Of a DNA stretch of 64,000 bases, positions 1,679 to 24,471 are shown piece by piece. This DNA is from Hydractinia symbiolongicarpus (taxonomy: Eukaryota > Cnidaria > Hydrozoa > Anthoathecata > Hydractiniidae). The first letter of the stretch is position 1, and each line of letters opens with the position of its first letter. The notes under the pieces were generated by a model, which was not told the origin of the DNA, searched no databases, and saw only the letters and a program-made list of their open reading frames with translations. The stretch covers positions 30,345,501 to 30,409,500 of the forward strand of contig NC_079878.1 in assembly GCF_029227915.1 (NCBI RefSeq), given 5' to 3'. The position numbers and the translations under genes are program-made.

Positions 1679-1945
<267 letters not shown>

Positions 1946-1961
1946 TTCCTAATTCATTTTC

Positions 1962-2107
1962 GGATAGCCGCACGACCGTTTAGGATAGCCGCACAACCGA
2001 CAGGATAGCCGCATAACCGTACAGGATAGCCGCACAACCATACAGGATAGCCGCACAACCACTTAGGATAGCCGCACAACCACTTAGGATAGCCGCACAA
2101 CCACTTC
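1962..2107 (+). repeat. 21-bp minisatellite, 7 copies, core GGATAGCCGCACAACC
   Basis: Copies begin at 1962, 1983, 2003, 2024, 2045, 2066 and 2087, so the period is 20-21 bp. The core ggatagccgcacaacc is nearly invariant, with single changes in copies 1 and 3; the 4-5 bp linkers vary (gttta, gaca, gtaca, ataca, actta). The same core recurs in the 84-bp repeat at 13607-14505 and as a single copy at 18876-18892. Confidence 0.95.
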
Positions 2108-5100
2108 GGCAGCCGTGACATTATCATGTTTTCATTAAAAAAATGGCTACCAAGCGGATGCCATGCGATGACTCTGGCCAGTGTATTCGAAAAGTTTAAC
2201 AACTGTAGCTAACCATTTGTTTAATGTTCAACGGAAGCTGTTGTATTTAAACTTTTAAAGAAATAAGGGTTACTAATTTTTAATCACAGATTACACTTCT
2301 GGTTGCTTTAATCTTCTGTTAAGTATTTGCAGCTGTGATGGGAAGATCTGTCTTGGATATATGCAAAATATCAAATGTCTTCTGCTGATAATTTATGATA
2401 GCTAGCTAGCTGGCTAGCTAACTATATATATTTATAGATTTATTTTTTTCTTGAACTTTATTGAAAGTAGCTAGGTAGCTACATATACAATAATATAGCT
2501 AGCTATAGCTAGCTGTAACAGTTTGATTATAGTTGCAGAATTATAAGTTATTCATTACCACGAACTTATTTCTGAAGCTGAAAATTATTGCTGTAAAAAT
2601 TTTGAGATTTCTTTATCAGGAAATCTTTCTGAAAGTTTTTTTGATTAAACACGAAAATGAATGCGGGCTAGCTAGCTAGCTATTTAAGGGCTGAAAATTA
2701 AGAGCTGAACTCTCATGATAATTGCATGAAAAATGCTTATAAAATTTTAAAAACATTAGCAAATTTTTTTGATGATTTCAGTATTTCGGGGACCATGCAC
2801 TATTGCTGCAGAAACCATAAAAGCTAAAACTTTTTCCTTTTTGGATAGTATTTTTTTCTCTATATAAAATAATATCCACTTCTGTACGGGTTAACAAATA
2901 AAAAAAGGTGTGTGTGTGTGTATCAGTATAGTTGATATCAGTATATATTTGATTAGTTTGGCCAAACTCTCTTGTTATCCATTATATATATATAAATTAA
3001 AATGGATAAATAAATATGGCACAGCTAATAATAAACAAAGTGGGAAAAGTAATCTTTCCCTGATGCTTCTGTATATAGCTATAAATTTTAAAAATATTTT
3101 GAGCATTCTATGCGCAAAGTGCTCAAGCTAAAGTTTTTATGCGCAACAACTTATGAATAAAGTTAAAATGAATCTTCCTAAATTTGAAGCATCAAAATGA
3201 AGTATAATGTAACAGGTATATATACCTGAAATTGATCTATGTTTAGATTATTTTTTAAATTTTTCGTTATTTTTATAACTTCCACTTGACTCTAGTTCAT
3301 TTGTGGTTTATTTTTCTAAGATTTTAAGTTACAAAAGAGCCCGTAATGTATATGTAAAGTATATTTTTTTACTGTATATACTTCGGTGTTATGTTTGGTG
3401 TGGTAAAGTAAAAAATTTTTATCTGAAGATTGACAAAAGTATTCTTGGGCAGTTGATATGTACATTTAAGATGTAATAACCAATATTTATAGGCATTGAT
3501 GTGGACTAGATATATGACATTTAGACAAGATGGTAGACAGAGACACAGGACATAACATAAAAAAATATGGAAATATTTAATGTAAAGATGACACGATAAC
3601 ATATAGAAATGTAGGCTAGTGATGGCCAGGCAGCCTCTCGAAATTAACTTTTTTTTATCATATCCACTGAAAAAAATTCAAGCTATGTTCTATAACTATT
3701 ATTTAATCTTGTTTTTACTGACACAGCATTGTTAAAGTGTGCAGTGAAAGTAAATTTTGTGTTTGGGTGGATATTTTTATGTTGATGACAAAGCTCAATC
3801 TTTTTGTTAAAGTTTAAACTTAGGAAAAATAAAAACGATGACGTTAAACTTGGAATGGTGTGTTTTAAAATCGTGTGACGATATTCCCCCAAAATATTTA
3901 TTATATACCCATCATTATAATTATCGAGTTCTTTAATTTAGGCATTTTAAGAGAGACCGTATTAATTTCAACCAAATGTTTACATCAAGATCAATTAAAA
4001 TTAGCCAAGTTTATATGGTTTTAATAAAATTTGTTAACAGATTTGCTTCAACCCCACTCCCTACCCCTTTCACATAAATGTTTCGAATTAAGAAACATTT
4101 TTTGTCACTTTTCTCCAACTCTGGGGCATCTTAATACCTTGTATATTGTAAATATACATAAAGTCATTGTTAGGGATTTTGTGTTTGCCATTATTGGAGA
4201 TGCAGCAGAGACTTGAGGAATATTTAGGGTTGGACGAGATGCTCGATAATAAGAACAAATCCTGTTTTTATTTTATCGTTTTTATTTCATAAATTTTTGG
4301 AGTCCAGTAAGCCACAATTTTTTAAAGCTTTTCGCAAAATAATATAATGTACATTTAAGGTAATGCTATCGCTCCAAAACATTTTTTACTGTGAACCTGA
4401 CAAAAATGTTTTGTTGAGAAAGAATATAACTACTTAAACATTACAATATATATAATCCCTAATCCCTAAAACAAGAGTATTTCGACTGGAATGGATTCTT
4501 TTGTTTTTATACATAGTATGGTATTTGACTTTATTTGAGAGCTCTCAATTTAGTAGTATTAAAAATATAAATAACAATGATGTGAGGAACATGTAAAGAT
4601 ATGTAATAATTAAATAGAGTAATTTGGGTTATATACAGTTATCATAAAGTGTGACCTTATTATGTAAAGAGCTATGATTTCAAACCTGTTGAAGAACTAA
4701 ATAATCTTTATGATATAATGTTTTATAGTTTTAGACTGACACAAAAATTATCAGTAGTAGGGAAGCTTTCAACAACAACATGCTGAAGGTTAGACAGAAA
4801 AGTCACAAATAGGTTGATTGTCATTGAAATTAAGTATGGGAACTGGACAAAATACAATTACTGTAGGTAAGAAAATTTTTATACAACAAACTTGGAATGT
4901 ACTGTACATAAAATCATACACATTCTTTATATAAGAAATCTTAATTAATATATCTTTCCTGCACTCTGCAATTCTTTTAATGAAAGATGATAATTGATTT
5001 TTTTATCATATTAATGTCATTATAACTGCCAAAAATACCTGATTTATGTTTTTTATCCTGTTTTGTTAACAATTTAGGCAACTGTCAACCTTAAAGTTTC

Positions 5101-5140
5101 GTGTTTCTAATAAAAAATGTGTCTTTATAATCCTGATCAT
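2108..5140. other. Gene-poor AT-rich DNA
   Basis: No frame here looks like protein: the open frames are short and of low-complexity composition. Clusters of TAGC/GCTAGC tetranucleotides occur at about 2398-2430, 2465-2515 and 2668-2685, and a short GT run at 2908-2922. Nothing else is recognised. Confidence 0.6.
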
Positions 5141-5144
5141 TTGT

Positions 5145-5490
5145 CCAAAAAGTGACACACTTTTTTGATAGCCATTTTTGTTTCCAACTCCCTCTGGTAA
5201 TCGATACATGATTTTATCTGAAAAATTAGTGATTCTTTGTTGCCTTTTTCATTGATAATCCATACATTATATTATTAAATAAATTGCGGTGATTGTGTAT
5301 TTACCACTTTCGTTTCCACCCCCTCTCATAATCCATACATCAATTTATCAAAGAGATTACAGTGATTCTTTTTTGCTACTTTAGTTTTTAACTCCTTCTA
5401 TGATTCTGTGATTCTCTATTTACAGTTCTGGTTTATACTTTTTATTATTAATATTTATGAAAGATATGACAGTGATTCTCCATGTAGGAT
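5145..5490 (+). repeat. Decayed tandem repeat of about 70-80 bp
   Basis: Variants of a unit containing 'aatccatacat', an AT-rich spacer, 'ttacagtgattctt' and 'ccactttngtttccaactcc' recur here, with the 'aatc(c/g)atacat' box at about 5200, 5258 and 5331. Related pieces occur at about 7060-7185 and 7668-7700. The copies are too diverged for a firm consensus by eye. It may be internal sequence of an old mobile element. Confidence 0.5.
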
Positions 5491-7060
5491 GTAATTTTAT
5501 TTTTCTAGAAAATTGTGATACACTGGATTAGCATTGCTTCAGACTTTGGCGGCTTGTTTACGACAGCACAAAATTAACGATAGTACAGAGAAGCACACAT
5601 AATTCATATATGGAGTGCTGCATTGTTACAGTAATGTGTTCAAGTTGGATGAAAATGACACTGTTGATTAGTGCTCTGTAATTAACCCTAATATTAATTG
5701 GAATAATATATATTCTTCTTTTTTTACTAATTTTCTTACTTTCCTAAACAACGGTAAACTTAAACTCGCTTTGGCCTAATGTTCAAATAAACGGGGTCTT
5801 GATGTATTAGAGTTAAGGATCTGATCTATAAGCAACCAGAGTCAAGCATTAGTAGAATATTGCTTAATTTTTAGCGCAAGTGTTAATAACCTATTCGACC
5901 AGAGAGTTTTATTGACAGGGAGGGTGGGGGCGGATTCCGCCTTATGCATGACTTTTGATAGGTTTATACAAAATAAATAAAATTTAGCACACTTTTTTTA
6001 CGTCATATAAGAAAAAGAGGGCGACAAATTTTACTCTGTCAGGATTTTTACTGTGACGTCACCGGAAGCTGGAAATTTGTCCAAAATACAACTATCTGTC
6101 TAAAAATCAATTACTAAGTTTTAAGGCGAATTTTTACATTATATTTGAAGTTTCCGACAGCCAAACTAACATTTTTTTTGTTTTTTACGCAAAATAGCCT
6201 GAAAATCTGTTTTAATAATAACCAATAGCAACAACAAATTTAAGAAACTAGTAAACATCCTTCGATTATGAAAAAGGCTCGCATTAAAAATAAACGCCTC
6301 TCTCAAACGTACGCTAATTAACAAAACGCATTACTACTGCCTGTCTGCGAGGTCTGGCCGGGTTCGTCAGGGATTTCTAAATCGCGCTCGAAATCTTTAA
6401 GCTACAATTAAAAAAGGGGAATATATTTTTATCGACTTTGCTGCGACTAATAAATTCCTGTACCTCACTTGCAAGATTGCCAAATTTTTCAATATTCAAT
6501 CCTAAGCTATTACAAACTCGTTCCTAGATCCTTTTGCTAACGTAGCTTTATATCGAAATGACAAAGGGTACAGGGATCAAAGATAAAGATTTCTTACAGT
6601 TTTAAATTGAATACACTGGTGACATCTTTTTGTTTTAAGTATTTAACAAAACGTAACACCTGTTATGCATTTCGCCTTAACCATTCGCACTTTCGTTCCG
6701 ACAAATGAATGTAGCGTAGAGAAGAAGACATATAACTGTGCTCTTTAATTGTTTCACTTTTATGCGATTTAATTGGGATTTATATTTGAGAGTAAAAATA
6801 ACGAATTGGATCACTGATTTGGAAAACGATTTTTTGTACACAAGATTTAAAGTTAAATAGAAGAATTTTGGTTAGGATACAGCTTGATAAAGGTATTGGT
6901 AATTATGCATTTTAAAACGAAAACTGTCTTTCCTCCATATACTATATTAGTATTGAAGTCACTCTCTGATAATAAACACTCTGGACCATCATAAGAAAAA
7001 AGGCGCCAGGGACTAAAAGCTGGATTACGTATAGATAAAACATTGGATAACCGACGATGA
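5491..7060. other. Non-coding stretch between decayed repeat copies
   Basis: No protein-like frame. It separates copies of the 5145-5490 repeat family, so it may be an insertion, but no terminal repeats were found. At 5918-5942 lies a G-rich 25-mer that recurs with one mismatch at 9830-9854 inside an intron of the recombinase gene. Confidence 0.4.
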
Positions 7061-7171
7061 TTCTCTTTTTACCACTTTTGTTCCCATTTCTCCGGGATAA
7101 TCCATACACCATTTATAAGGAAATTACGGTGATTTTTATTTTACCTCTTGTTTTCAACAGTATCTAATAAT

Positions 7172-7640
7172 CCATATCGTAATTTTTCGAATAAACGCCC
7201 AGGGCGTTTATTAAATTTTGTGAGTGAGAGCTTAGTATTTTTTTTAATTACGGATGAAAGGAAAGACGCCAGGAATTACGACAAATATTCGATAAGCCTT
7301 TACAAAAGAGATGTTCTTATTGGACATATGTATGTTACCATTTTAAAAATAAAAGTTGGACTAGTTAGTAGTATCAACTAGTTTCTGAGGTTTTTAAAAA
7401 TGAACTTGCTAAGAGGAAAAAACGTTTCCTACGGCAAAGTTAAAGTTGAGAAAAAAGTGTACATAGATAATTTCTTATTACGAATAAAGAGGCAAGAGAG
7501 TTTTCCTTTTGGTTTGAATAAATGCTCCCGCTGGATGTGCGCTATTCCAGCGGGGTGTCTATTAAAGGCAGCTTTTAAATTAAAAAGATAAGAAGATGGG
7601 GGCGTTTAGACAAGAGGGGCGTTTCATGAAAACAGCGATT
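7172..7640. mobile_element. Possible degraded copy of the 7806-8032 MITE family
   Basis: The left end (about 7172-7215) reads 'atcgtaatttttcgaataa' then 'acgcccagggcgtttatta', closely like the start of the MITE at 7806 with GCGC changed to GCGT. The right end (about 7600-7640) has 'gggggcgttta' and 'aggggcgtttcatgaaaa', resembling an inverted version of that start. The interior (7220-7590) is unlike the shorter element. The boundaries are guesses. Confidence 0.3.
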
Positions 7641-7805
7641 ATTTAAACCATTAACACATTTTTTGAAAGATTACAGTGATCCTCCATTTATCAGTTTCAT
7701 CTGCAACCGCCTTATATGCACTATTCTATCTAAGATAGTACAAAGATTTTTAATTTAACACTTTTATTCCAGCCTTCTTGACTGACCCCAAGATTGAACC
7801 AGAAT

Positions 7806-8032
7806 ACCGTAATGATCCGAACAAGCGCCCTGGGTGCTTATTAACTTTTTAGATATTTTGGGCGCTTAATCGAGGGAGGGCTTAAAAACGCTGGGCGCTT
7901 TCATCAGGTGGGCGCTTATTCGAGGGGGCGCTTAGTAAGTGCTGGGTGCTTATTGAACTTTGAGGAAATTATCTGGGCGCTTATTTGAGGGGCGCTTAAT
8001 AAATATTGGGCGCTTATTCGGATCTTTACGGT
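7806..8032. mobile_element. MITE-like element with 25-bp terminal inverted repeats
   Basis: The left terminus begins accgtaatgatccgaacaag (7806) and the right terminus ends cttattcggatctttacggt (8032). The right end's reverse complement matches the left over about 25 bp with two mismatches. The interior carries many degenerate copies of 'gggcgcttatt' and 'gaggg(g)gcgctta', so the element is rich in internal subrepeats. No coding capacity. No convincing target-site duplication is visible. It ends 70 bp before the probable first ATG of the DBF4-recombinase gene, so it could contribute promoter or UTR sequence; that is inference. Confidence 0.75.
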
Positions 8033-8102
8033 GTTTAATTTTTATTATGTACAACTGGTTATTTTTTGCTACTTTTTTAATTTCACAATAGGTTTGAAAG
8101 TA

Positions 8103-8165
8103 ATGGAAGGTACAACGGGCGTAAAGAATCAAACAACGGAGAGGAATACGGATATAGAGAAAAAG
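8103..8165 (+). CDS. Probable first coding exon of the DBF4-recombinase gene
   Basis: An ATG at 8103 in good context (purine at -3, G at +4) opens 21 codons, MEGTTGVKNQTTERNTDIEKK split as 20+1 residues, ending at AAG followed by GT at 8166. A strong acceptor-like tract (ctctttcgtag) ends at 8414. Joining 8165 to 8415 is phase 0 and adds Ser-Gly before the ATG at 8421. The implied intron is 249 bp. The same-phase join and the polar, coding-like composition support it. The donor (AAG/GTTGGT) is only moderate. A second acceptor-like site, cacaatag, ends at about 8091, so this could itself be an internal or trans-spliced exon. Confidence 0.45.
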
Positions 8166-8383
8166 GTTGGTTATAATTTTAAATGGTTAGTCATTTTGAG
8201 GCTTAATACTAATATAAATGCATAAAATGTCCAACCAGTTTGTTTTTATTTACATATATGTAAATTACATGACCTTTCTGCTAGTGCTATATAGTTTTTG
8301 CCGGCGGCGTTGTCTTATGTTTAAGCATGTTTTGCCGTGTAAATACAACATGTTTTCTCAGAAAGTTTTCAATTATAATAATT

Positions 8384-8506
8384 ATGTCTAAAAGGCGGGT
8401 AATCTCTTTCGTAGAGTGGGATGAGCAAAGATGGAACAAAGCAAAAGAACCCATCAACGGCAACGGAACTTTTAAAAAATATTTTAGCGTCAAAGAGCAA
8501 ATTTAG
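8384..8506 (+). other. 40-codon upstream ORF overlapping the 8421 start
   Basis: An ATG at 8384 opens a 40-codon frame, out of frame with the main protein and ending at TAG 8504-8506. In an unspliced 5' leader it would be met first and would reduce initiation at 8421. If the acceptor at 8414 is used, its ATG is removed. This is one reason to favour the spliced start at 8103. Confidence 0.3.
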
Positions 8507-11500
8507 AGAGAGCAAAGACAAATTTACCGAGCAAGAGATGACTTTGCAATTAGTTAATGTGACAAAATCAAGCGCCAAAAAAGAAGAATTGGAAAGTAAG
8601 AAGATAGTGAATGAGGCCAAGCAATTGAAAAGAATGTTTAATAAAGTTGAAATACTGGACGGTAGATACATAAAATTCGAAGACAAAGACAAACAATATA
8701 AACCCGTTGTGTGTAAAGAACTTTCTCTACCTATTATTAACTACCTCGATCAGGGACCAGCTTTTGTATCTTGTAAACCTTTACCAAAGGAATTAAGAGA
8801 TAATACGCAAATTCAATTGGATTCGAACTGTAAAGACGTGACTAAAAAGGAAAATGGTTATTGTGAAATATGCGCAGTACATTTCGAAGATCTCGAGATT
8901 CATCGATCAACTGAGCAACACACGGCATATATATCTGATAGAGCTAATTACGCTAGCTTGGATCGGGTGATCAGTAATGTTAATAAAAGAAATGAAAACG
9001 AAGTAACTGAAAATTGTACCATTAAAGGAATCAGCATGTTTAACGCAGAATTGATTGTAACTGTCATAAGTTGTGGCTATGTCAAAGGTACTATGGAGGG
9101 CAATGAAGACTGTTGGAGGCACTTGGCATTTGCCAATGGTGGTAGAACTCAGAAGGATCTTGATGACACAAAATTATTGGAATTGGTACCTGAAGAGATC
9201 ATGTCCATGATAGAGAAGCAAATAAGGCAGATTCTTGGAGAACATTATGAAAACGGTTACATTAGAGATTACATCATAAAGGTTTTACTCCCGGACGCTA
9301 TTATATGCTTGTTTTCTACAGTAATGAAATGGACAAAAGCAAAAACCGAGGAGCACTTCAAAGTATATCTTACGTACATAGATGAGAATAACGATATGAC
9401 TTTTAAAGAAGACGAGACTTTCCAACAGAACATCAAACGTGGAATGGTAAATCATCAGAATTTTATTAAAGAATTGCACTCAAAAATTCAAAACAAAAGG
9501 TCACAAATAGACTTTGAAGTCACAAATGGAGCAACAGAAGCGACGAAAGTTTCTGATGCTGAAATAGAAAGTGAGAAAGAAGTTTTTCTTCAATCCACAG
9601 AAGCCAATGCGACAAATACAAAGGAACAACTTAAAAAAAGAAAATCTGGTAGCATCGTTAAGGAATGTCCAGTTTGCAATATTAGTCAAAAATATATTAC
9701 GCGTCATTTACGTAGAGCGCATAAATGGAGCTGGGAAAGTGCAGCTGCAGCCTCGAGTCAATTCGGATTGAAAAATAGCCAGAAGAAAGGTGTGTTTGTT
9801 TGTTATATCATTGAAACCTATTCGGTCCCGGGAGGGCGGGGGCGGATTCCGCCTCAGACTGTTTTCCTTTAATAACTTCCTTATGCCATGTTGTATGGCA
9901 ATGAAACTTACTAAGATTCAATAATTATCTATTAGGCACGCAAATGCCAAATGTTTTGATCCCACACGTCTAGGAGGCTTAGATATTGGCTATTACTCGA
10001 AACTACTCCTAAAAATCTCTATCAAATCTAATAACTTTTTTTAGGATTATCCTTAGAGCATGAAAAACTTACATCACCACTTCGTTTCCTTAAGTACAAT
10101 AATTATTCCGATTTCCAAATTTTGTCGTATTTTACCCAAAAACCAGGTTTTTTCCAATTTTCGGGTAAAATCCGACAAAATTTGGAAATCGGAATAACTT
10201 GTTAGGCGAATTATTCAAAAACCGAAATATATGTTAAATAAATTTTATTTGGCTTTCAGATAGTGGTATTTTAAATAAATTTCCAGCTTTCGGTAATGTC
10301 ACAGAAAAACTGCTGACATTTCTGTTTTCTTCGTAATATAAATGTGCCAATTTTTATTTCATTGGGACAAGCCTCTAAAATGTTAGTTTCAAAGCAGGGA
10401 TAAAACGCAGTCAGACTATTCTTAGGACAAGTTGCGACTTTCTTGGCAAATTTAATTGTGCACAAAAATAAATTCCTCATTTCTACAAGCATATGTGAAT
10501 AACCGTATATATTTTCGTCTTTTCTTCCATTAAAGAGTTGGACAAGAAGAGTAGCAACTACCATTACAGTCGAATGTGTCCATTCCCGAACTGCTTTCTC
10601 GTAAGATCAAACTTGCCTGATCATCTAGCAAGGTTTCACAAAATAGAGAAAGGACCCAAATTTTACGAAATGCTTAAAATAGCGCCAAAATTCGAAGAAT
10701 CGTATCTGCCAAAGGACTTTTCGCAGTCTCCCAAAAAATCGTTCCAAGACATCCTCGTCAAGAAAGCAGAGGCCGCAAGTAGTAATGATAACGCCGATAT
10801 ATCGCAACACAGGAAACGCAGGTTTGATTACTCATCGAGACCAAATTCATTAGAGAGCAATGTGGTACCCAAAGAGACCAAAAAAACAGTCTTTGTACAC
10901 GGCGACGATCAAGAGAAGTTGGGAAATGAGGAATCCAGTTGCGTCATTGAATCAATGCATCAATCTTCTAATGTTAATGAATTTTGTCAGTTGCGGCTAC
11001 GGCCAAAAGTAAGATATGAGATGCCCGCAAAAGAACAAGTGCCGGAGTCAGATGATTCTACTGAGGATGAAAGTAACATTAGCGGCGAATATTTAGGAGA
11101 AAGAAGTGGTGATGATGATTGTTGCGACCAAGCTCTTGGTAAGAACGTGGAAAAGCTTGTAGAACGGTTTAGGGAGTATATGGTTGGTCCTGATCGCAAA
11201 AGAGATGAAGCTTCAATGTACGTAATCGCTGGAGATATTCGACGTATTTTTCGGGCTATAAATGTTAAAGATGACGTGAGTATAGTTTTCAAAAATGGTG
11301 GTAACGACTTTAGAGAAATATATTTGAACCAATACTGCAAGCAAAAAAAAACGAAGCCAACAAGCGTGAAGAAATACCTCTACTCTTTAATTGATTTATG
11401 CGAATTCTTAATCGCAGAAGATGTTGCCCTACCAAACGTTTCCAGCCACGACATTACAACAATGATTGGTAAACTCAAACAATGGAGAAAGAACTTTAGA

Positions 11501-12622
11501 AAGGAGGAGAAGCTAGCGCGATTTGAAAGAATGTCTGAAGATCAGGAAATGTTGGTCACTAAAGATCAAGTACTGAAATACACAAACAGTAATCAGGCTC
11601 GAAAAGCCACGGAAATTATTCAAAAGTTAGCACAGTATGGTGCTTACCCCATAAGTCAAACTGATTATTGTATGGTGAGAGATCATATTTACTTTACAAT
11701 ACACTTTACATTGGCACAGCGATTAGGTGTTACTGCCAACATGACCATGAATGAATTCCTGAATGCAAAGAACAAAGACGGAGTGTGGATTATCGATGTA
11801 TGGAACCATAAAACAGTCGAGACTTATGGACCAGCTAAAGTCATATTATCTGAAGATAATTTTAATAGTATGAAAACATACATCGATTTTGCCAGGATTC
11901 AAACTAATCCAAGGTGCACCGAAGTGTTCCTAAGCTGGTCTGGAAGAAAAGTGAAATCGGGCGATATAAGTAAAAGACTCCATTTGTTATGGGAGCGAGT
12001 AGGCAACTTTGAAAACAAGATAATACGGAAAAATCTCTCGTCGAACATTGTCAGAAAGTCTGCAAGCACAGGCCTGAGAGAGTCAAAAAGCGCACATATC
12101 GACGATGCTGCAAACTTAATGTCCCATAGTATAAAAACCGCTGACCAGCATTATTATTTACGGAACATAGAAAAGTCTTCGTTGATTGGAACAAGTTCGA
12201 TAACGAATTTGTTTCATGGAACAGATGACATCAATAAAACGCCAACGAAGAAAAAGACTTGGACCGAAAAAGAGTGCGAAGTATTAAAACATACTTTTGA
12301 TGAAAAAAATGAGATCAGTCTAAGTGAGGTGAAAAAAAAGAGCGACTCCCTGTCGTCACTGAATGCTTCTCCCAGACAAATGTATGACAAGCTTCGTCGT
12401 ATGAGTAAACCTGCATTTTCTCCCATAAAGCGACGAAGTTTATTTTCCAATGAAGATATAAAAACATTAAAGCATTATGGAGGTAAATTAATTGAAGGAG
12501 GTGCGTTAACAGAGGAGAGAGTAAGGGATTGTCTGAGAGAATGTAATTTGATGGAAAACTTTAGTTTTACTCAAATTCGAACACGAATCATGTATGAACG
12601 CAAGAAAAGGCTGGTAAAATAA
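8421..12622 (+). CDS. DBF4-domain/tyrosine recombinase fusion protein (Crypton-like), spliced
   Basis: Two exons, 8421-9789 and 10536-12622, join in phase 1 (AAAG/GTGTGT donor; pyrimidine tract then AAAG acceptor) to give 1151 residues and no internal stop. Counting from the ATG at 8421: DBF4 motif M at about 83-118, around YIKFED and PIINY; DBF4 zinc finger C148-x2-C151-x9-H161-x5-H167, the spacing of the Cdc7-activating motif; an unrecognised helical region at about 215-330; C2H2 finger C416-C419-H429-H434; second finger C471-C476-H486-H491; an acidic linker; a recombinase core-binding region at about 660-790; and a catalytic domain with R852, K882, R963 (NIVR in place of HxxR), H987 and Y996, with the usual nine-residue H-to-Y spacing. 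Two Myb/SANT-like segments follow, starting near W1032 and F1093. DBF4 activates Cdc7 at replication origins; tyrosine recombinases cut and join DNA through Tyr. No BRCT domain is seen. It may be a Crypton that captured DBF4, or a domesticated fusion. An in-frame TAG at 8412-8414 precedes this ATG unless the upstream exon is spliced on. Confidence 0.85.
9790..10535 (+). other. Phase-1 intron of the DBF4-recombinase gene (746 bp)
   Basis: It begins GTGTGT after AAAG and ends in a pyrimidine-rich tract (attttcgtcttttcttcc) then attaaag. Exon 1 leaves one base (g) and exon 2 supplies 'ag', restoring a Glu codon and the recombinase frame. It contains a G-rich 25-mer shared with 5918-5942 and a strong foldback at 10103-10197. 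Without splicing, the first frame runs on to 9872 and the recombinase half would have no obvious ATG near its start. Confidence 0.75.
10103..10197. repeat. Foldback with 35-bp arms in the intron
   Basis: The left arm starts ttattccgatttccaaattt and the right arm ends aaatttggaaatcggaataa. The arms pair over 35 bp with one mismatch, around a loop of about 25 bp. The size and near-perfect arms fit a very small MITE or foldback insertion. An unspliced transcript would form a stable hairpin here. Confidence 0.85.
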
Positions 12623-12623
12623 G

Positions 12624-12705
12624 GTGAGTAATTTTTCCACATTTTGTTTTGAAACGTGTGGTTATATCAGTGGTAACTAATTTTTACTATCTTATTTCTC
12701 TTTAG
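12624..12705 (+). other. Probable 3'-UTR intron just after the stop codon
   Basis: The stop TAA is at 12620-12622, followed by one base and a consensus donor, AAG/GTGAGT. A strong acceptor, ttatttctctttag, ends at 12705, giving an 82-bp intron. The exon junction would lie 1 nt after the stop, too close to trigger nonsense-mediated decay under the usual 50-nt rule. Use of these sites is inferred from their match to consensus. Confidence 0.5.
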
Positions 12706-13606
12706 CTGATGTATATATTTGGATTTACGACTACCTGCTTGCACGGTTCGAACATACATATCATAAACTAACATGTTATTAGATTTTTTAGTTTTATTAT
12801 TTTTGTTAAATTATCGTGATAAGGACTTTATTAGCCGTTGCAACTATTTCACCAATTTACAAAACGTTCGTTGTCGTAGTCACGTAGTCACCTCATTCAC
12901 GCGTAAAAACACCAAAGTTGTTGTTTTTATACCGTCTCGTATTCAGTTATCATGTGACTTTAAATTCTTTAATACGCTTTTTATATAAGAAACTTTTGGT
13001 CTTACGTCAATGTTTTTAACTTTACAAAGAGTGCCTCTGAAAATTTTTAAAATCATTGCTCTTGACACGCATTAAAATTGTTTTTTAGAAGAAGTTTTGA
13101 CAAGTTGTATAGTATATGTCAGGATATAAACGTTTCTTATTTGGAACGTGTATTTCTGCATATTTTTTTCATTTTTTGAAGTTTTTTTCTAACTTACTTT
13201 TGTTGTCAGATTTTCCATTGACTGTTTTATGTTGTTTATAATTTTTGTTAAACCTTTTTTTTGTTACAAGTATTGTGACTTTCAAGAAAACGTACTTCAA
13301 CGCTTATACATTATATATTGTCTCCAATGCGCATAATCTGTCGCCAGCCGACAATTTTTTGTCCTCAGATATAAATCAGTATAGCTATAGTTGTATATCA
13401 TACAATAATTAATCTGAAACCTTGTACGTCGTAATATAAAGTTCAATATTTCAGAGACAAATGATTTCTGAAACTCCTGATTTTTTCATTTTTTAATATA
13501 TCCAAAATCACAATTATGGGGGTTTGGGCCCTTTAACAGAACTACTTGAATTTCTTGGATATCTATACTACCGATATAAAAATAATTACTTTGATGTTTA
13601 AAAATG
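12706..13606. other. Probable 3' UTR and intergenic AT-rich DNA
   Basis: No protein-like frame. The first part is probably 3' UTR of the upstream gene; no clear AATAAA with a downstream GT-rich element was singled out. Sequence resembling flanks of the 84-bp repeat starts near 13600. Confidence 0.4.
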
Positions 13607-14505
13607 GGATAGCTGCACAACCGCTAATTATTTTAATTATCTCGGTACTTGCTTTTGTTCATCGCTTCAACATATAGGATAGCTGCGCAACCGTTGATTA
13701 TTTTAATTATCTCGGTACTTTTATCGATTTAATTGCGTTTTTTTCATCGTTTCGACAAATAGGATAGGTGCACAACCGCTAATTATTTTAAATATTTTAG
13801 ATCAATTTAATTGCGTTTTATATAAAGGATAGCCGCACAACCGGTAATTATTTTAATTATCTCTGTACTTGCATGGATTTAATTGCGTTTTACTATCTTT
13901 CCGATATGTAGGATAGCCGCACAACCGGTAATTATTTTAATTATCTCTGTACATGTATGGATTTATTTGCGTTTTACTATCTTTTCGATATGTAGGATAG
14001 CCGCACAACCGGTAATTATTTTAATTATCTCTGTACATGTATGGATTTAATTGCGTTTTACTATCTTTCCGATATGTAGGATAGCCGCACAACCGGTAAT
14101 TATTTTAATTATCTCTGCACTTGTATGGATTTAATTGCGTTTTACTATCTTTCCGATATGTAGGATAGCCGCACAACCGGTAATTATTTTAATTATCTCT
14201 GCACTTGTATGGATTTAATTGCGTTTTACTATCTTTTCGATATGTAGGATAGCCGCACAACCGGTAATTATTTTAATTATCTCTGTACATGTATGGATTT
14301 AATTGTATTTTACTATCTTTTCGATATGTAGGATAGCCGCACAACCGGTAATTATTTTAATTATCTCTGCACTTGTATGGATTTAATTGCGTTTTACTAT
14401 CTTTTCGATATGTAGGATAGCCGCACAACCGGTAATTATTTTAATTATCTCTGTACATGTATGGATTTGATTCTGTTTTTTGTAATATGTATGATAGCTG
14501 CACCG
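13607..14505 (+). repeat. 84-bp tandem repeat, about 11 copies
   Basis: The box ggatagccgcacaaccg starts at 13607, 13677, 13762, 13827, 13911, 13995, 14079, 14163, 14247, 14331 and 14415, with a decayed copy at about 14492. The first spacings are irregular (70, 85, 65 bp); the rest are exactly 84 bp. Each unit continues with 'gtaattattttaattatctc', 'tgtatggatttaattgcg' and 'tttactatctttncgatatg'. Copies at the left edge and the last one are the most diverged, as expected when unequal exchange homogenises the middle. Confidence 0.95.
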
Positions 14506-17500
14506 TTATTACTGAAAATAGAAAAATCGTCTCTTTCAATACCTTAAAAAAGAAGCTTGCCAATTCCTCCTTTATTTGTTTCTATATTTTTATCAATGCA
14601 GTATGAATTTTTTTCTTATGTTGAGATATATATGTTAGCTCTACAACTGTTACCGACTTTCCATACATATCTTGTTCGTGTGGGCGATTTTGGACAATTA
14701 ACAACAACATATCAGCGGCATGTTTCAGCTTCTCCCACAATGTCTGTATAATTTACGTTCACTTAAATTCAAATATTCAAGTTGTGCACGAAAATTGCCA
14801 GGCTTTTGTGAAGTCATTTATAACTTCAGGTAAAAATAACATGGCCGGAAATAATCGGAAAGACTATGTAGTCATAGAGGGCATAATAACTTTCCTACTA
14901 AAAAAAGGAATATGTATCTCTTTCTATCTTTCGGCTTCTGATGGAAAATTTTTATCGACATTTTGATGCAACTACAATGCAGCTTTTCTAAATTACAAAA
15001 ATATCGAAATATTCATCGTTTTTTTAACATTGAACCATGAGAGCGTTGATGTCTGGAAGGGCATTTTCGGCCAATCTAGAGATGCAAAATTTAAAAATTT
15101 TTTACTCGGCGCCCGTCATGGGGGTGCCTCGGGTAGTCATTATAGGTCCCCTCCTCAATACTAAAATTGTGGTTACAGTAATGCATCTAGTCTTCTTTAA
15201 ATTTCTTCTTTAAAGTGTCGAGTTTTCGTGATTTTTGTTTTAAAGATACTATTAATTTTTACAAGTATTTAGTTGTCTTGAATAGTACTTTACGTGTACG
15301 TAATTTAATTGCGTTTATTCGAGGCGATAGTAAAAGTATATAAAAAATCCATAACTGCTATTGTTTGCTCTTTTTATTAAAAGGTAATTTCACTGGTGAT
15401 ATTATAATATAGAAATTTCGTTAATACAACTAAACACAATCTCTCATATTTGATACATCGGTAAAATAAGGTATCCTAAAAAACTGCAATAGAGACGAAG
15501 TGTAAAAATTTGAATAAAGACCCCTCTTTTTTGAACGTCTCCCCCCCCCCCTAAAATGAAAACTCGATTGAAAAATCTGAACGAGGGACTTTAGCTACTA
15601 GACTTAAGATATATTTTATGATCGTGTCAAGAGTAATGTCAGGGAGTTATAAATGGATAAAAGTAGTAGGAACGTGTGCGTAATAATCCATGCTAAGCGT
15701 TCACTAAGGAATTGATCGATTAACGAATGGAATTAAATGTTGGTGCGCGAAAATGAATGATGGGTTCCATAAATTTTTATAAAAACTAGTTGATAAGGCC
15801 CATGAAAAAATTTCATTTAGGAAAAAGATCGGCCCTTTGACATTTAATGACCTTTAGCAATGACCCGTCGATGTAAAAACCATATTTTTAGGTGTTACCT
15901 GTATTGTGTGGAGTTTTAAACTCTGATCAAATTAATTTATAGGATCGCGCGGTTTTGATTAGCACTTAAAGAGATTTAAGAATTATTGCTTACATCAGCA
16001 ATGTTTCTATTTTACAAAAAATTTTTTGAAAAATATGCTCAACCGGTGCCTCTATTGTGTAGAGCCTTAAATGTTGATCAAGAAAATAGATACGATATTA
16101 TGTTTTTGAGGAACGGTTGAACTGATATCGTGATCAGAAAAGTTTTTGATGACGTCGTTAGCTATCTGTTCCAAAATAGTTAGGTTGACCGAGCTTTAGA
16201 AAATTTTTTCGAATTGCTACACACACAGGAGATGGCGTCAGTTATTTCCACTCGTTTCTTCAAGTAGGCTTAAAATTAAAACTGTGATGTATAACGTTTC
16301 CACTAATCTTAATACACTACAACCTTGACGCCAGTCTTGTTATAAACGTCAATGATACGTCTTTCGAATTTTGATGCCGTCAGCAATGAATCATGGATGC
16401 ACAAAAAAGCTTTTTTACAATTTTATTGTATGGTGAAAAGCTACTGTACAAAGTAATGTATTGGATTGCGCAGTTTTTATCAGCAAAGAAAGATATAGGA
16501 TTATAAAAAATAAAAAACTTTCCCACCAATGCACCAAAATGTTTTGACTGATCAAGAAAATATATACAAATTTGTGTTTCGACGAACGGGAAGAGACATT
16601 CCATATGGTGATTAAATAGATGAAGTCATTAGGCAGGCCTGTTCTGAATCAGGTGGGTTGACTCAGATTAAGAAAATTAGTCCTTAGTTAGTTTTAGGTA
16701 GTCCCTTTACCCAGTCGGTTACTTCTAAAACTTAACAGTGCAATACAATGCCTTCACTAACCTTAATACTTTTCTCTGATGTCGATATCGTTTTAACGTA
16801 AAAATCGGTAGATTGCAAAAGAATTTTAGAGGTGGTGTGGTATAGACTTTGTTAAAGAGAAGTACGAAAAAGAAAACCCACTTTGCAAAAGTCACAGACA
16901 GACACACGGAAGTATCCTATTTAAGTTTGATAAACTTACTTATGATAAAATACCACAAGATGTTAGCATCGGTTTATTTGACTCTTCTTGAAGGCCTATT
17001 TCTATTTGACTGTGTATATTGAAAATAATGAATAAAAAAAATGTTTATCATGTGTTTTAAAATTTCTTTAGACATACACAAATCTTACCACTTCTTTACT
17101 AAAACAATCAATAGTGTATGAAGCCTTCATTGCAAAATCTAAACGAGGGGATTTCCGCTACAAGGATTACAGATAAATTGGAAATCAAATTAACAAAACT
17201 TCAGAAGTTACCCACACACATCCGTTCTCTACATACGATACTTGGAATCCTTCACCGGAGAGTAGGGACAACCAATCGAAAAACAATCGAAAATCAAACA
17301 CTACCGCTTAAACACTACCACAGGCTATATTCGTCAAAATAATCACGCAGCATGCAAATTGAAATAGATACAACGCCCAGACCTGGCCCTGCAGCACCCT
17401 GAGCTGTCGGTCCCCTATTTTATAATAACTCCCGCTTGTCTGCGCACGTTTTTTACATAAAAAGAACTTTACGCACTACTGTGCCCTCTCGATTGACATG

Positions 17501-18272
17501 GTCCGTTATACAGGACAATGTACCTTCGTCACTTAACGTCTTTGACGTGGTATGTATCCGCCCCTGACTTTCAGATTTGTTTTCACAAGATTTCGGATTC
17601 TCAAATTCTCTCTTATTAACCTATTCATTGTTACCTGGACAAAAATATTCGAAACTTTATAAGTTTTCTGTATTTTGGATTTTCTGTCTTTTGGACTTCC
17701 CTTACCATAAGCAAAATGAAAATTTGGGTGAAGCTTTGAAACCAACACTCTGATTGGGAAAGAAACTAATTGAATTATGCTAATACTTTAATTATTTTGT
17801 CTATGGAGAGTAAGCCAGATTGAAATTTCAAATAACAAGTGCTACTTACCAATTTCTTCTGTCAATTTGAATTTCCAATATACATTTGTACTAAAACCTT
17901 TAAGTCATAATATTTTTTTTATTTCAAAGAACCGTTCCATCATACTAGTGGTGTCTTCCATACATACTTTTTGTATTTCAACCGTAGGGCCAGAACAAGG
18001 AATTATCTTGCGCGATATCTTTCTTCGTCATTGATTTTACATAAAAATCATGCCATTTAAAAACAATAAGGTCAAAAAGGCATTTTATTTAAATTTATCA
18101 TCCAGCAGGTTAAAAAGGAATAAAGATTAACGTGCGCAAAAATATAATTCCCTGAAAAGTTTTTAACCAAATGAAAATTTCGATGGTTTTTCACTGTAGC
18201 AACCTTAAACATAAGGGATATTTCTTCTCCGTACATTTTCACTAAGAAATGTCCTCTTTCAAGGACTACTCT
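14506..18272. other. Non-coding AT-rich DNA
   Basis: No recognisable gene. There is an 11-base C run at 15541-15551. Weak internal repetition occurs between about 15900-16140 and 16440-16640: 'atcgcgcggttttgattagca' is like 'attgcgcagtttttatcagca', and 'tgatcaagaaaatagatac' is like 'tgatcaagaaaatatatac'. This may be an old duplicated element. Short open frames near 17118 and 17533 have no family resemblance I can name. Confidence 0.5.
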
Positions 18273-18334
18273 AACCTCGTCCCAAGGCCATCTTGTATCT
18301 TTTCTGACCCCGGGATGCCCTGGGGACGAGGTTG
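18273..18334. repeat. Short foldback with AACCTCGTCCC ends
   Basis: The left end reads aacctcgtcccaagg and the right end ccctggggacgaggtt, inverted with one gap, around a 30-bp middle. A half-copy, acctcgtccccagggtt, is at 24314-24330, about 140 bp before the satellite begins. This looks like the remains of a dispersed foldback family. Confidence 0.55.
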
Positions 18335-18614
18335 CCACTACTCATAATCACCCTAATCACCCTGATTTTTATACGGGATGTTTTATAAAAGGATTCAGGC
18401 GGTAATATCTGATAACATCGGGATTGGAAACTCGTTTTTATTTTAACATGAGAAAGCACTGTGGCAACTGTATTTTCCCTTATATAATTTAGTTTGTTTA
18501 ATTTATTTAAAGTCGGATATATACTTTACAGTAGTTTTTAATTATATATATTGCTTTACATATAGCACAACTTATTTTTTCTCTTAGATATATTGGCCAC
18601 CTTATATTTTTGCG

Positions 18615-18636
18615 TAATATGTTGGCCAACATATTA
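18615..18636. repeat. 22-bp perfect palindrome centred on TTGGCCAA
   Basis: The sequence from 18615 to 18636 equals its own reverse complement (taatatg-ttggccaa-catatta). A second perfect palindrome, ctgtcaaatttgacag, is at 18684-18699. Such sites can bind dimeric proteins, but no function can be read from them here. Confidence 0.6.
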
Positions 18637-18875
18637 AAAATCATTTTTGTTTCGGCTTACGGCCGAATGTTTTAATAATATTGCTGTCAAATTTGACAGT
18701 AATTCTCAAATTTGACAAGATTATTATCAATATTTGACAAGTGTTATTACATCAATTTACAACAGTTTTTGTCTCTTGTATTGATTAAAAAATAAAAGTT
18801 TCGTGCATTAGGTCCCTATTTCACATTTTGAAAGCTCGAGCATGAACTTTTCGTATTCCGGTTGCCGATATGAAA

Positions 18876-18892
18876 CGGTTGTGCAGCTATCC
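18876..18892 (-). repeat. Single copy of the GGATAGCYGCACAACCG motif
   Basis: On the minus strand this reads ggatagctgcacaaccg, matching the core of the repeats at 1962-2107 and 13607-14505 with one change. It is 20 bp from the second AAT tract, with an intervening 'aatattcc'-type junction also seen next to the first AAT tract (about 1941-1950). Confidence 0.8.
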
Positions 18893-18911
18893 TATAAGGA
18901 ATCGGGAATAT

Positions 18912-21393
<2,482 letters not shown>

Positions 21394-21425
21394 TTAATTA
21401 ATTAATTAATTAATTAATTAATTAA
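21394..21425. repeat. (TTAA)8 tetranucleotide repeat
   Basis: Eight consecutive TTAA units with no interruption. Confidence 0.95.
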
Positions 21426-21612
21426 ATAGTAACCTTGCAAGGGTTTTGAAATTTTGACAGTAAAACACCTAAATCTTGTTAAGTTAAATGAGGTAGCCGA
21501 CAAAATGCAAAAAGTGCTGACATGTGCAATAAAAAGCCTGGTTGACATAAAAAGACTGTTTTTTAAATTTGACACAACTTATGCAAAATATACACATTTA
21601 CTACTATAGAGG

Positions 21613-21880
21613 CATTTGGTAGACATGTCTACCAAATGATGCTATAAGTGATAATATATATGGTCGTGTCTACCAAATGAGCCTCTTAGGAAAGGCAACG
21701 TTATTTGGTGGACATGACAATGTATTTTTTATTCTCGGTAAGACCTTTACGTACCCCATGCAAAATGAAAGTTTTTGAGGTGATGCGCGAAATTATTTAA
21801 TTATAAGTGGCGTAAATTTTTAGAAATATGTATTGTCTACCAAATGCTTCATTTTTTGACTTTGCGACCAAATGATGCTA
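21613..21880. repeat. 26-bp palindrome and scattered TCTACCAAATG motifs
   Basis: Positions 21613-21638 form a perfect palindrome (catttggtagaca and its complement). The half-site tctaccaaatg recurs at about 21667 and 21836, a variant (tttggtggacatg) is on the other strand at about 21704, and gaccaaatgatgctatta is at about 21866. 'ccaaatgatgctat' occurs both beside the palindrome and near 21869. This may be a nested foldback element interrupted by the AT tract. Confidence 0.6.
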
Positions 21881-21886
21881 TTAGTA

Positions 21887-22030
<144 letters not shown>

Positions 22031-24471
22031 GTTTTTTTGTTGCTGTGCTTTTTCTGGAAATTTTTGTTGGATTGGAAAGCTCCTGTGTAAGGTACCCTTT
22101 CCTAAAGAAAAATTGAAGTAATTTGTACAATTATAACGCGCCGAGCTGTGTTTTATTTTATTGTTTCTAAGAGGATGTAAGAATACAATATTATCAATTT
22201 TAATTGGTTTTATCCAAATCAAGGTAAGGCTTAATCACACGAAAGGTAGCTAGCTAGAGCTCAGTTTTGTATAAAAGAATTGAAAGTAATTTGTAGAATA
22301 CATATGGAGAAGCTGTATTACTACCTAACTGATAGCCAGATATAGGAAAACCTGTAGCTAGGGCGCAGCCAAAACAAATAGCTCTGGGCGCTAGAGTGAG
22401 TTGACCAACCGTTTTTTATCATTTTTTATTTATTATATAAGTAACCTGTTAACAGTAATTAAAAAAATATCCACTTTTGCTATCAAACCAACAGCAATGT
22501 AATTGTCAATAGGAATTAGTTTTCCCTACACCCTCCCTGAGAACAAGGTTTAAAACGACATTAAAACATTAAAACTGTCATTAAACAGAACTTCAAGGAT
22601 GCCCAAGCCGCACCACGTCCCCTAAACGGCGTGGGCATCTTCGAAACTGCTTGTAATTTTAGAACAAGGGTGCTGATAAGCTGCATACGCCGTATAACGT
22701 GCAGGCGTTTTTGGGCAAGTTTAGCGTTTTGCAAAAAAATTGAAGTATTCACCCGAAAACCTGCATAGACCATAAAGTAAACTATGTGGTAGTAAAGTTC
22801 TTGAAAGAACTGTTTTTGATGGTTTTTGATAAAATTTACTTGATAAATAACTTTTAATTTTTATTAACTTCTTTCTCTTAAAGCATCTTTTTCCAACTAT
22901 CGTCCACAAGGTATGTTACAAGGAATTGAATTTTGAAAATGCTTCAGGCAAGTTCGGGAAAGTGCGGGCGGTTTTGGAAGACAATCACTAATTTAATTGA
23001 AAAAGTTTCCCGAACTCGCCCTTATATATGTGGCTGTTTGCAGCTTATTGACACCCTCTTATTTTAGAATATTCTCAGGAATAATAGACCAAGAGAAATT
23101 ACATCACAGTTTTTTGTCCACCACCCACGTGTGTTTGAGAACAACCCACATAACAAAGCTCATTATTTTTTAAATTATTTGTGTAAAAATTACTATTTCA
23201 TTCACGATAAACCATTTGTCAGTCATTTTATTCGCCCAACAAAGAATCCTATCCAAGGTGCTCTTCTATTAGTGCTGAATTTAATAATTGACATGGTTCA
23301 GCATAGTTTTTAAAAGGGTCTGATTGCAAAATATGATTGCCAAAGTTCAGCACTTGTAATATTTGTGTATTTGTGTACTCAGCTTCTAAAACACACACAA
23401 GAGACATTATAATTTCCTCTGGGTGATTACATTAATGTTGGTTGAAAAAAAACCGAATGATGAGAAGCATATGTTTTTAAATGGGTCTAGGACAATAAAC
23501 TTATTTAATTTCCCTTGGCCTTGCATCAATCAAATTCTGAAAAAATAAACACTTCTAAAATGATTTTGTCAGATTTGGAAACTGTTGGTATGGTTGGAAC
23601 TTTGCGTATAAAATTAGTAAAGTTGCCAAATTGTTTAGTTTTTTTCTTTTATACTTTTCCGAATTAGCCTTAATTATTTATAAGATGAAAAACAGTGCTT
23701 TCAATTCCATTGACTTGGCCATCCCTTAAAGGCACTGGAAGCTTCACTATATGAAAATGTTTTCTTTTTCTTTTAGATTGTGTACAATGGGAGTGAGTGA
23801 TGTAATCTTCTAATGCGTGTGGTGAAAAGAAGGCGAATCCGTTATTGTTTTTCTGCCCAAATTTGAAGCTATTTAATAAATCTTGATAAAGTTAAAAAAC
23901 TGTTTTGATTTGTTTGTTTTTGTTTTAATTGTTTCCCGTGAGTATTCGAAATTCGTTTCAGCAGATTCTGTGGCTTCTACTGCCGGTATTTTTACGTGAA
24001 AAAAATACTGTTTTGTTGTGAGGTCATTTACGAAATCGTTAACGTTAGGACCAACTTCTGCGGGTTGTACAACTCGATGTATCACATATCTTTCAGAATA
24101 CTGCTAAAAGTGTAATTTTGTATTGCGCTCTTTACTTTTACCATTCTGTGGGAAAAGGCGGTACAAAATTTTAGCACGCGTTATTCGTTTTTGTTAGTTT
24201 CGCGTAATCTAATTTTCTCGCACATTTTGAAAAGAATATCCCACGCACATCAAATACTCGCGCAGTCTATTCTATTTTGAGCAACGAATTGTTCCGCTGA
24301 GCGTTCATTTCCTACCTCGTCCCCAGGGTTCTTCTATATGATAATCAATTTTGATGTATTTCGGAAGATGTTAGCGCCAAAGAAACAAGAAGCGCTAGGG
24401 ACAAAGTATTGGATAGTTTAATTTTGCTTGCAACTTGCGCAATGCTTCGCAACCTTTTTTTAATTTCTAGC
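22031..24471. other. Non-coding DNA before the satellite array
   Basis: No firm gene. Two short hairpins are visible: 22595-22641 (aaggatgcccaagccg against cggcgtgggcatctt) and 22951-23016 (perfect 11-bp arms agttcgggaaa and tttcccgaact). A half-copy of the CCTCGTCCCCAGGG foldback end lies at 24314-24330. The last 140 bp before 24472 show no satellite similarity. Confidence 0.45.
23873..24100 (-). other. Possible orphan coding exon
   Basis: On the minus strand an open frame follows an acceptor-like 'cttttagcag' and encodes a mixed, protein-like sequence beginning YSERYVIHRVVQPAEVGPNV, rich in Val, Thr, Glu and Lys rather than the Phe/Ile/Asn-rich translations of AT-rich junk. No family is recognised, no partner exon was found and the donor is weak. 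It could be a remnant of a gene or of a mobile element. Confidence 0.2.

Follow-up and report, generated by a model that had tools for sequence, protein, structure and literature searches.

What does a gene that joins part of DBF4 to a tyrosine recombinase do in the genome of a hydrozoan, and does it belong to the host or to a mobile element? The gene lies in Hydractinia symbiolongicarpus, in a 64,000-nucleotide stretch of contig NC_079878.1 (assembly GCF_029227915.1, positions 30,345,501 to 30,409,500 of the forward strand), which is called the window here and provides all coordinates. The original prediction had read in it a spliced frame fusing motif M and the zinc finger of DBF4 to a tyrosine recombinase, and had offered as explanation either a Crypton-like element, able to time its movement by recruiting Cdc7, or a domesticated gene. 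Comparison with related sequences confirms the fusion and its conservation and places it in a mobile element, whose ends, (TAA)n target and iteron-like arrays, like the SET8-like domain of its sister families, go beyond that prediction. We consider it fairly probable that this element is a tyrosine-recombinase transposon that brings the replication-licensing activity of DBF4 and Cdc7, and in its sister families a SET8-like activity, to itself.

The fusion gene

The gene is encoded on the forward strand by two exons, and its exon coordinates, splice site and residue numbers agree with those first predicted. Exon 1 (8421-9789) begins with the ATG at 8421, comprises amino acids 1-456 plus one base and ends at the donor AAAG/GTGTGT; it carries motif M, the zf-DBF zinc finger, a helical region with a sub-threshold PWP3A-B_C match and a first C2H2-type finger. 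Behind a GT..AG intron (9790-10535), exon 2 (10536-12622, including the TAA stop) adds a second C2H2-type finger, a linker, the tyrosine recombinase and a C-terminal helical region that is Myb-like as judged by eye only. The spliced protein of 1151 amino acids combines DBF4 motif M and zf-DBF with two C2H2-type fingers and a divergent tyrosine recombinase. The splice is supported because P0002, a relative found by protein search, is a single open reading frame (ORF) of 1321 amino acids that covers both exons and the whole architecture and runs unbroken across the point corresponding to the intron, and because one sister family (family 3) holds a SET domain, the DBF4 motifs, finger(s) and most of the recombinase in one 1272-amino-acid ORF. 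Given these two continuous frames, two separate genes are unlikely; the fusion is genuine, the same joined order being kept in P0002 and in the sister families. P0002 is 30% identical to exon 1 over 369 amino acids, with 73% over 40 amino acids at the finger, and 48% identical to exon 2 over 701 amino acids. Closer relatives are P0006 and P0007 for exon 1 (91% and 86% identity) and P0001 for exon 2 (94%), the protein searches having given 5, 2 and 3 matches at E <= 0.01. No relatives were found in viral contigs scanned with the exon-1 and exon-2 alignments, or in prokaryotic genome contigs scanned with the exon-2 alignment.

Both DBF4 motifs that contact Cdc7 are present, as predicted. Motif M (8664-8765, forward strand, about amino acids 82-115, RYIKFED...PIINY) is aligned by phmmer to the human DBF4 structure 4f99_B, and the zf-DBF finger with its following helix (8850-8978, forward strand, amino acids 144-186, with C148, C151, H161 and H167) is matched significantly by the Pfam profile PF07535 (E=1.5e-13, 51 bits against a cut-off of 24.8). 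Over amino acids 82-186, motif M and finger together match 4f99_B with E=7.6e-9 (phmmer); P0002 (4.4e-4, from amino acid 73) and family 3 (7.5e-5) match human DBF4 independently, motif M being kept in the former and largely kept in the latter. The order of motif M and the motif C zinc finger is that of DBF4, and both can be aligned to the human protein; the differences are the fusion to a recombinase and the BRCT domain (DBF4 motif N), which Pfam did not detect in exon 1 at E <= 1. According to the accessible part of a study of yeast DDK (PMC8927117), motif M binds Cdc7 alone, motif C is situated between Cdc7 and Mcm4, and the kinase is compromised once motif C is removed.

The genome searched comprises 480.9 Mb, 480.2 Mb of it in 15 contigs, and contains zf-DBF at 22 places: seven belong to family 1, that of the window, four to family 2 and three to family 3, seven are partial with internal stops, and one lies on contig C5. 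The C5 locus resembles an ordinary DBF4 gene, its motif M split over two frames, apparently by an intron; the 8 kb fetched there contain no frame for a recombinase. Since the family-1 module is only 31% identical to human DBF4 and 21% to this DBF4-like locus, the host gene is unlikely to have been the source of a recent capture.

The core-binding and catalytic domains of the recombinase are encoded at 11135-12166 (forward strand, exon-2 residues about 200-543). The pentad R852, K882, R963, H987 and Y996 (numbering of the spliced protein) stands at the predicted positions and is invariant in all nine aligned sequences, including that of the window; in the same nine, Asn960 replaces the usual His of HxxR. 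The significant match to a Pfam recombinase profile is missing for exon 2, which gave no Phage_integrase match and, as best recombinase-type hit, Phage_int_SAM_1 with E=0.13. Among the relatives, the Phage_integrase matches of P0005 (4.8e-4) and P0002 (0.014) stay below the cut-off, the best reaching 20.4 of 27.1 bits. The AlphaFold2 model of the recombinase is of low confidence (pLDDT 54.5); its Foldseek search returned only tyrosine recombinases or integrases in the first 14 rows, with a best E of 2.2e-3 and no row reaching 0.001. Together, the pentad, the relatives and the low-confidence model suggest that exon 2 encodes a divergent tyrosine recombinase with the fold of known recombinases; the absence of a family from the VIA-align list does not exclude that family. 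Residues 306-347 of exon 2 resemble the MCM3 winged helix at 17.1 of 27 bits in Pfam, a sub-threshold lead only.

A mobile element in TAA microsatellites

The gene sits in an element of 16,967 bp (1944-18910, forward strand), in which the two exons are the only long ORFs and no ORF of reverse-transcriptase size occurs. Five full-length copies, on C1, C4 (the window), C12, C13 and C15, share these ends and differ outside them in every case; their exon 1 is 99-100% identical at the amino acid level, and most of the 10 kb compared at first shows 96.8-99.9% identity. Because the copies have the same ends and different flanks, the element is mobile. The predicted membership in a mobile element is thereby borne out, and the domesticated gene offered beside it does not describe this locus. 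Decayed copies are found on C7 and C11.

The copy on C1 differs from that of the window at 6 of 7,580 aligned sites. Both exon frames are open in four of the five copies, C15 having a small deletion in exon 2. Constraint on the coding sequence between copies is suggested, not proven: C13 differs from the window by 18 substitutions in 3,456 exon sites versus 42 in 2,949 upstream, and the ratio of synonymous to non-synonymous changes is 10:8 for C13 and 12:8 for C15, which probably shares history with C13.

The left terminus, TATTCCTAATTC..., forms the first inverted arm (1944-1960, forward strand) and is identical from TATTCC on in all five copies; identity stops where (TAA)n meets TATTCCTAATTC, a junction that reads CAATATTCC in C12. 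The right terminus (18877-18910, reverse strand) consists of one inverted copy of a motif described below, followed by the second inverted arm, ...GGGAATA. Here identity stops where GGGAATATTA meets (TAA)n, as read in the window, C1, C13 and C15, the junction being GGAATCGGGAATATTA followed by (TAA)n in the first three and AATCGGGAATATTA followed by (TAA)n in C15; the right end of C12 was placed by alignment only, not read across. The arms at the two ends are thus short and inverted (AATATTCC / GGAATATT), and a GGATAGC motif is inverted there as well. The positions of the ends are ambiguous by 1-3 bases because TAA is common to element and target.

The only runs of at least ten TAA units in the 64-kb window are two tracts that flank the element, (TAA)88 on the left (1680-1943, forward strand) and (TAA)89 adjoining the right end (18914-19180, forward strand), and at least 24 units stand on each side of all five copies. 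The element inserts into (TAA)n microsatellites. In the window, the left target tract is the native tail of a long interspersed nuclear element (LINE) with a reverse-transcriptase-like frame, which occupies 1-1679 and lies outside the element. The 3' end of this LINE has 42 matches in the genome, many of them 97-100% identical, and all ten other copies sampled are followed by TAA repeats (in nine cases by four or more perfect units, in one by an interrupted repeat). As the tail is natively TAA, the left tract very probably existed before the insertion. The sister families show the same association: right ends adjoin TAA in eight of the eight cases seen for family 2 and in both of those seen for family 3, while the stretches fetched for L020 and L023 contain no end. 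At about 8190-8340 of L024 (oriented as fetched), the right end of one family-2 element and the left end of another have a single (TAA)48 tract in common, as though one target had been used for two insertions.

An iteron-like motif

The 16-bp motif GGATAGCCGCACAACC occurs 19 times in the element at up to two mismatches, 18 times forward and once inverted. No site lies outside the element within window positions 1-24400, and none was produced in forward orientation when the element was shuffled 50 times at the mononucleotide level. Seven copies form a left subterminal array (1962-2102, forward strand) with a spacing of about 21 bp, and eleven copies of this terminal motif, mostly 84 bp apart, form an internal iteron-like array (13604-14479, forward strand). 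Family 2 has a motif of its own, GGATAGCCTGACATC, which recurs every 89 bp in internal arrays and also stands at the right end; its left-end array, known from the one abutting copy in L024, consists of close variants, mostly GGATAGCCTGCCATC. Ten sites of GGATAGAATTGCATC, mostly 92-94 bp apart, are found in family 3, and a version with two mismatches is inverted at its right end. For both sister families, the 7 kb fetched beyond L017 and L021 did not extend as far as the left end. Because each family has its own motif in comparable places, each motif may be recognised by the family's own protein.

Sister families and the wider recombinase group

In families 2 and 3, the frame of motif M and zf-DBF also encodes a SET domain, which precedes them (for the two families, Pfam gives 3.5e-15 and 6.1e-14 for SET and 5.3e-12 and 9.9e-12 for zf-DBF), and the best PDB matches of these SET domains are chains of KMT5A/SET8 (4.8e-21 and 1.2e-19). 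KMT5A/SET8 (PR-Set7) is the H4K20 methyltransferase, and this methylation connects it with the licensing of origins; the sister domains differ from it in sitting N-terminal to a DBF4-recombinase fusion and in an altered NHS motif. The exon-1 frame of family 2 is open on C7, C1 and C8, broken on C2 and decayed in L024-L028, and the C8 copy has no recombinase match. Family 3 is represented by a locus at C4:6.13 Mb, broken once near the end of the recombinase, and by decayed copies on C14 and C11.

A recombinase search that scored 64 of 356 candidates gave 72 matches, which were merged by eye into 59 loci and are therefore a subset. Upstream on the same strand and within 10 kb, a SET domain was found at 27 of these 59 loci, zf-DBF at 13 and both at four, counting one start per listed SET locus and dropping second pieces and unlisted rows; as controls, the downstream side gave one SET and one zf-DBF, and the opposite strand none of either. 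What the DBF4 and SET modules mark is one part of a larger recombinase superfamily. The SET8-like query itself has at least 151 matches in the genome (150 of 243 candidates scored). Some sets of SET8-like matches with identical scores have no scored recombinase within 10 kb (e.g. C67:1451, C1:23486484, C2:14450501) and possibly represent other SET8-carrying elements.

Relation to known mobile elements

DIRS and Ngaro retrotransposons are eukaryotic mobile elements that encode a tyrosine recombinase. The window element differs from them in having no ORF of reverse-transcriptase size, the reverse-transcriptase-like frame belonging to the LINE outside it. Starships are large fungal mobile elements run by a tyrosine recombinase, and their captains carry DUF3435; here, no DUF3435 is among the Pfam matches, there is no second long ORF and the host is an animal.

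Cryptons are DNA elements with a tyrosine recombinase and without reverse transcriptase, for which circular excision has been proposed; as far as the accessible text of Kojima and Jurka (PMC3212892) goes, they have no terminal inverted repeats, those of animals have neither terminal repeats nor a C-terminal domain, and Crypton termini carry short direct repeats of 4-6 bp. We infer that the recombinase is the transposition protein of the window element, which in this respect and in having no reverse transcriptase resembles CryptonA and CryptonI as portrayed there (PMC3212892). To this extent the element agrees with the Crypton-like label of the original prediction, but its inverted termini do not, and the 17-kb body, the TAA target and the iteron-like arrays set the element further apart from that description (PMC3212892). 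Direct repeats of 4-6 bp at its termini would be indistinguishable from the (TAA)n target present on both sides. Further differences are the DBF4 module and, in the sister families, the SET8-like one. As for DUF3504, hmmscan gave no match to PF12012 (DUF3504) for the recombinase or its relatives, in a comparison with Crypton recombinases that rests on this profile and not on Crypton reference sequences. None of the 23 DUF3504 places in the genome overlaps the 72 listed recombinase matches, the profile being built on domesticated genes, and hhalign against L042, a DUF3504 ORF of the same genome, returned a probability of 0.1%, a weak comparison in that L042 looks like a host gene.

A search confined to open-licence PMC papers, Repbase lying outside it, found none that links zf-DBF or DBF4 to a tyrosine recombinase, or the DBF zinc finger to transposition. 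For tyrosine recombinase, SET domain and transposable element together, this search gave, by titles and the beginnings of abstracts, only reviews and unrelated work. The element would belong with the recombinase DNA transposons, and its mechanism would be categorically new if the replication reading holds.

A possible mechanism and its alternatives

In the transposon proposed here, the protein would bind the 16-bp motif in the left array, the internal array and the right end through its zinc fingers and/or its C-terminal region. Recombination at the short inverted arms would excise the element through a circular intermediate, whose junction of the inverted arms would read GGAATATTA+TAATATTCC in family 1 and GGAACATCC, TAA, GGATGTTCC in family 2. 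Such a junction would form a recombinase-type site with TAA in the overlap, and reinsertion could proceed by exchange within the TAA overlap supplied by the target, which would explain the preference for TAA. At the array, the DBF4 module, joined by the SET8-like domain in the sister families, would recruit or mimic the licensing and firing machinery of the host (Cdc7; H4K20 methylation), so that the element or its circle would be replicated, or moved in S phase, and its copy number would rise. Replication is put forward because DBF4 and SET8 are two independent modules that both point to it. Motifs M and C without BRCT might be expected of a protein that takes Cdc7 to a new address, here the element, and the timing of movement by Cdc7 that the original prediction suggested would fit. 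A bolder and tentative version, which we regard as possible but doubtful, is that these animal transposons build their own replication origin, the recombinase with DBF4 (and SET8-like in the sisters) licensing and firing the circle and reinserting it into TAA.

Several observations weigh against the mechanism proposed. No BRCT domain was found, and only about 80 residues precede motif M; the second half of motif M is lost in family 2; and the AlphaFold2 model of exon 1 is too poor (pLDDT 42) for the Cdc7 interface to be judged. No credible SET domain was found by tblastn in the window's own element, and in the sister families the NHS motif has Asp for His at all eight family-2 and family-3 loci checked. 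With half of motif M lost in family 2 and this His altered, some DBF4 and SET modules may have lost biochemical activity. Evidence for selection is thin, the synonymous to non-synonymous ratio being 10:13 for C12 and 0:3 for C1. Finally, neither module lies within 10 kb upstream at 23 of the 59 recombinase loci. Among them is a group at 29% identity (L040) with five copies on C1, C9, C11, C14 and C15 and open frames of 671-701 amino acids, for which no DBF4 or SET8 match was found within that distance (a SET8-like match 18 kb upstream of the C15 copy was not counted) and whose C1 ORF matches no Pfam profile at E <= 1. Because these loci, including a five-copy group with open frames, do without either module, the modules seem not to be needed for the mobility of such recombinase elements.

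Some of these observations would suit a protein that uses DBF4 and SET8 not for replication but to escape or reshape host control, by sequestering Cdc7 or by altering chromatin or checkpoint signalling. Without BRCT, normal origin docking would be incomplete, and the altered NHS motif and the halved motif M of family 2 point the same way; sequestering, however, needs no fusion to a recombinase, and two licensing-related modules with a large internal array suggest an action on the element's own DNA. These are arguments and not proof; we rate host control as unlikely. It is more improbable still that the DBF4 module merely tethers the protein to chromatin loaded with Cdc7 and MCM, with integration following origins and no help to replication. 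Such a tether would agree with the contact between motif C and Mcm4 in yeast DDK described in the available part of PMC8927117, but a TAA microsatellite stands at every insertion end seen, and recognition of the overlap sequence would explain this target.

The recombinase itself might be cargo, the element being moved in trans by a DDE transposase, since inverted termini are foreign to the recombinase DNA transposons in the accessible text of Kojima and Jurka (PMC3212892). This is very improbable: the element has no further long ORF, three divergent families have the recombinase and the terminal plan in common while their motifs are family-specific, and the pentad is kept in nine of nine sequences. 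Least credible of all is a domesticated single-copy host gene in which DBF4 was fused to a captured recombinase. The intact long frame and some sign of constraint between copies would agree with it, but besides decayed copies there are five almost identical ones whose ends agree and whose flanks differ, and a separate DBF4-like locus exists on C5. Barring an assembly error, the copy structure rules out domestication at the window locus.

Further features of the gene and the window

The C2H2-type finger CPVCNISQKYITRHLRRAH (9666-9722, forward strand, amino acids 416-434) was recognised by eye, and the 40 amino acids around it are those that are 73% identical in P0002. A weak resemblance to the PWWP3A/B C-terminal domain (9159-9362, forward strand, amino acids 247-314) reaches 20.9 of 27 bits, below the Pfam cut-off; it is likewise sub-threshold in P0006 and P0007 and is absent from the matches listed for P0002 and for families 2 and 3. 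A G-rich stretch of 25 nucleotides upstream of the gene (5918-5942) recurs with a 96% match in the gene's intron (9830-9854). Two more repeats lie directly to the right of the element, at 19176-22030 and 22033-24400, the latter matching 31 other places among 40 scored. They are followed by about 39.5 kb of a 203/406-bp satellite (24472-64000), whose orientation switches at about 27444.

Implications

If the DBF4 module works, the element would be a transposon in direct contact with the kinase by which replication origins are fired, and it would offer a testable answer to the question of how recombinase elements that move by cut-and-paste multiply. A chromosome-scale genome, copies with open frames and short, defined modules allow the binding of Cdc7, the binding of the motif, the formation of the circle and the targeting of TAA to be tested separately. 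Should the more doubtful own-origin version be true, these elements would correspond, among eukaryotes, to iteron plasmids, their initiator being built from the licensing factors of the host.

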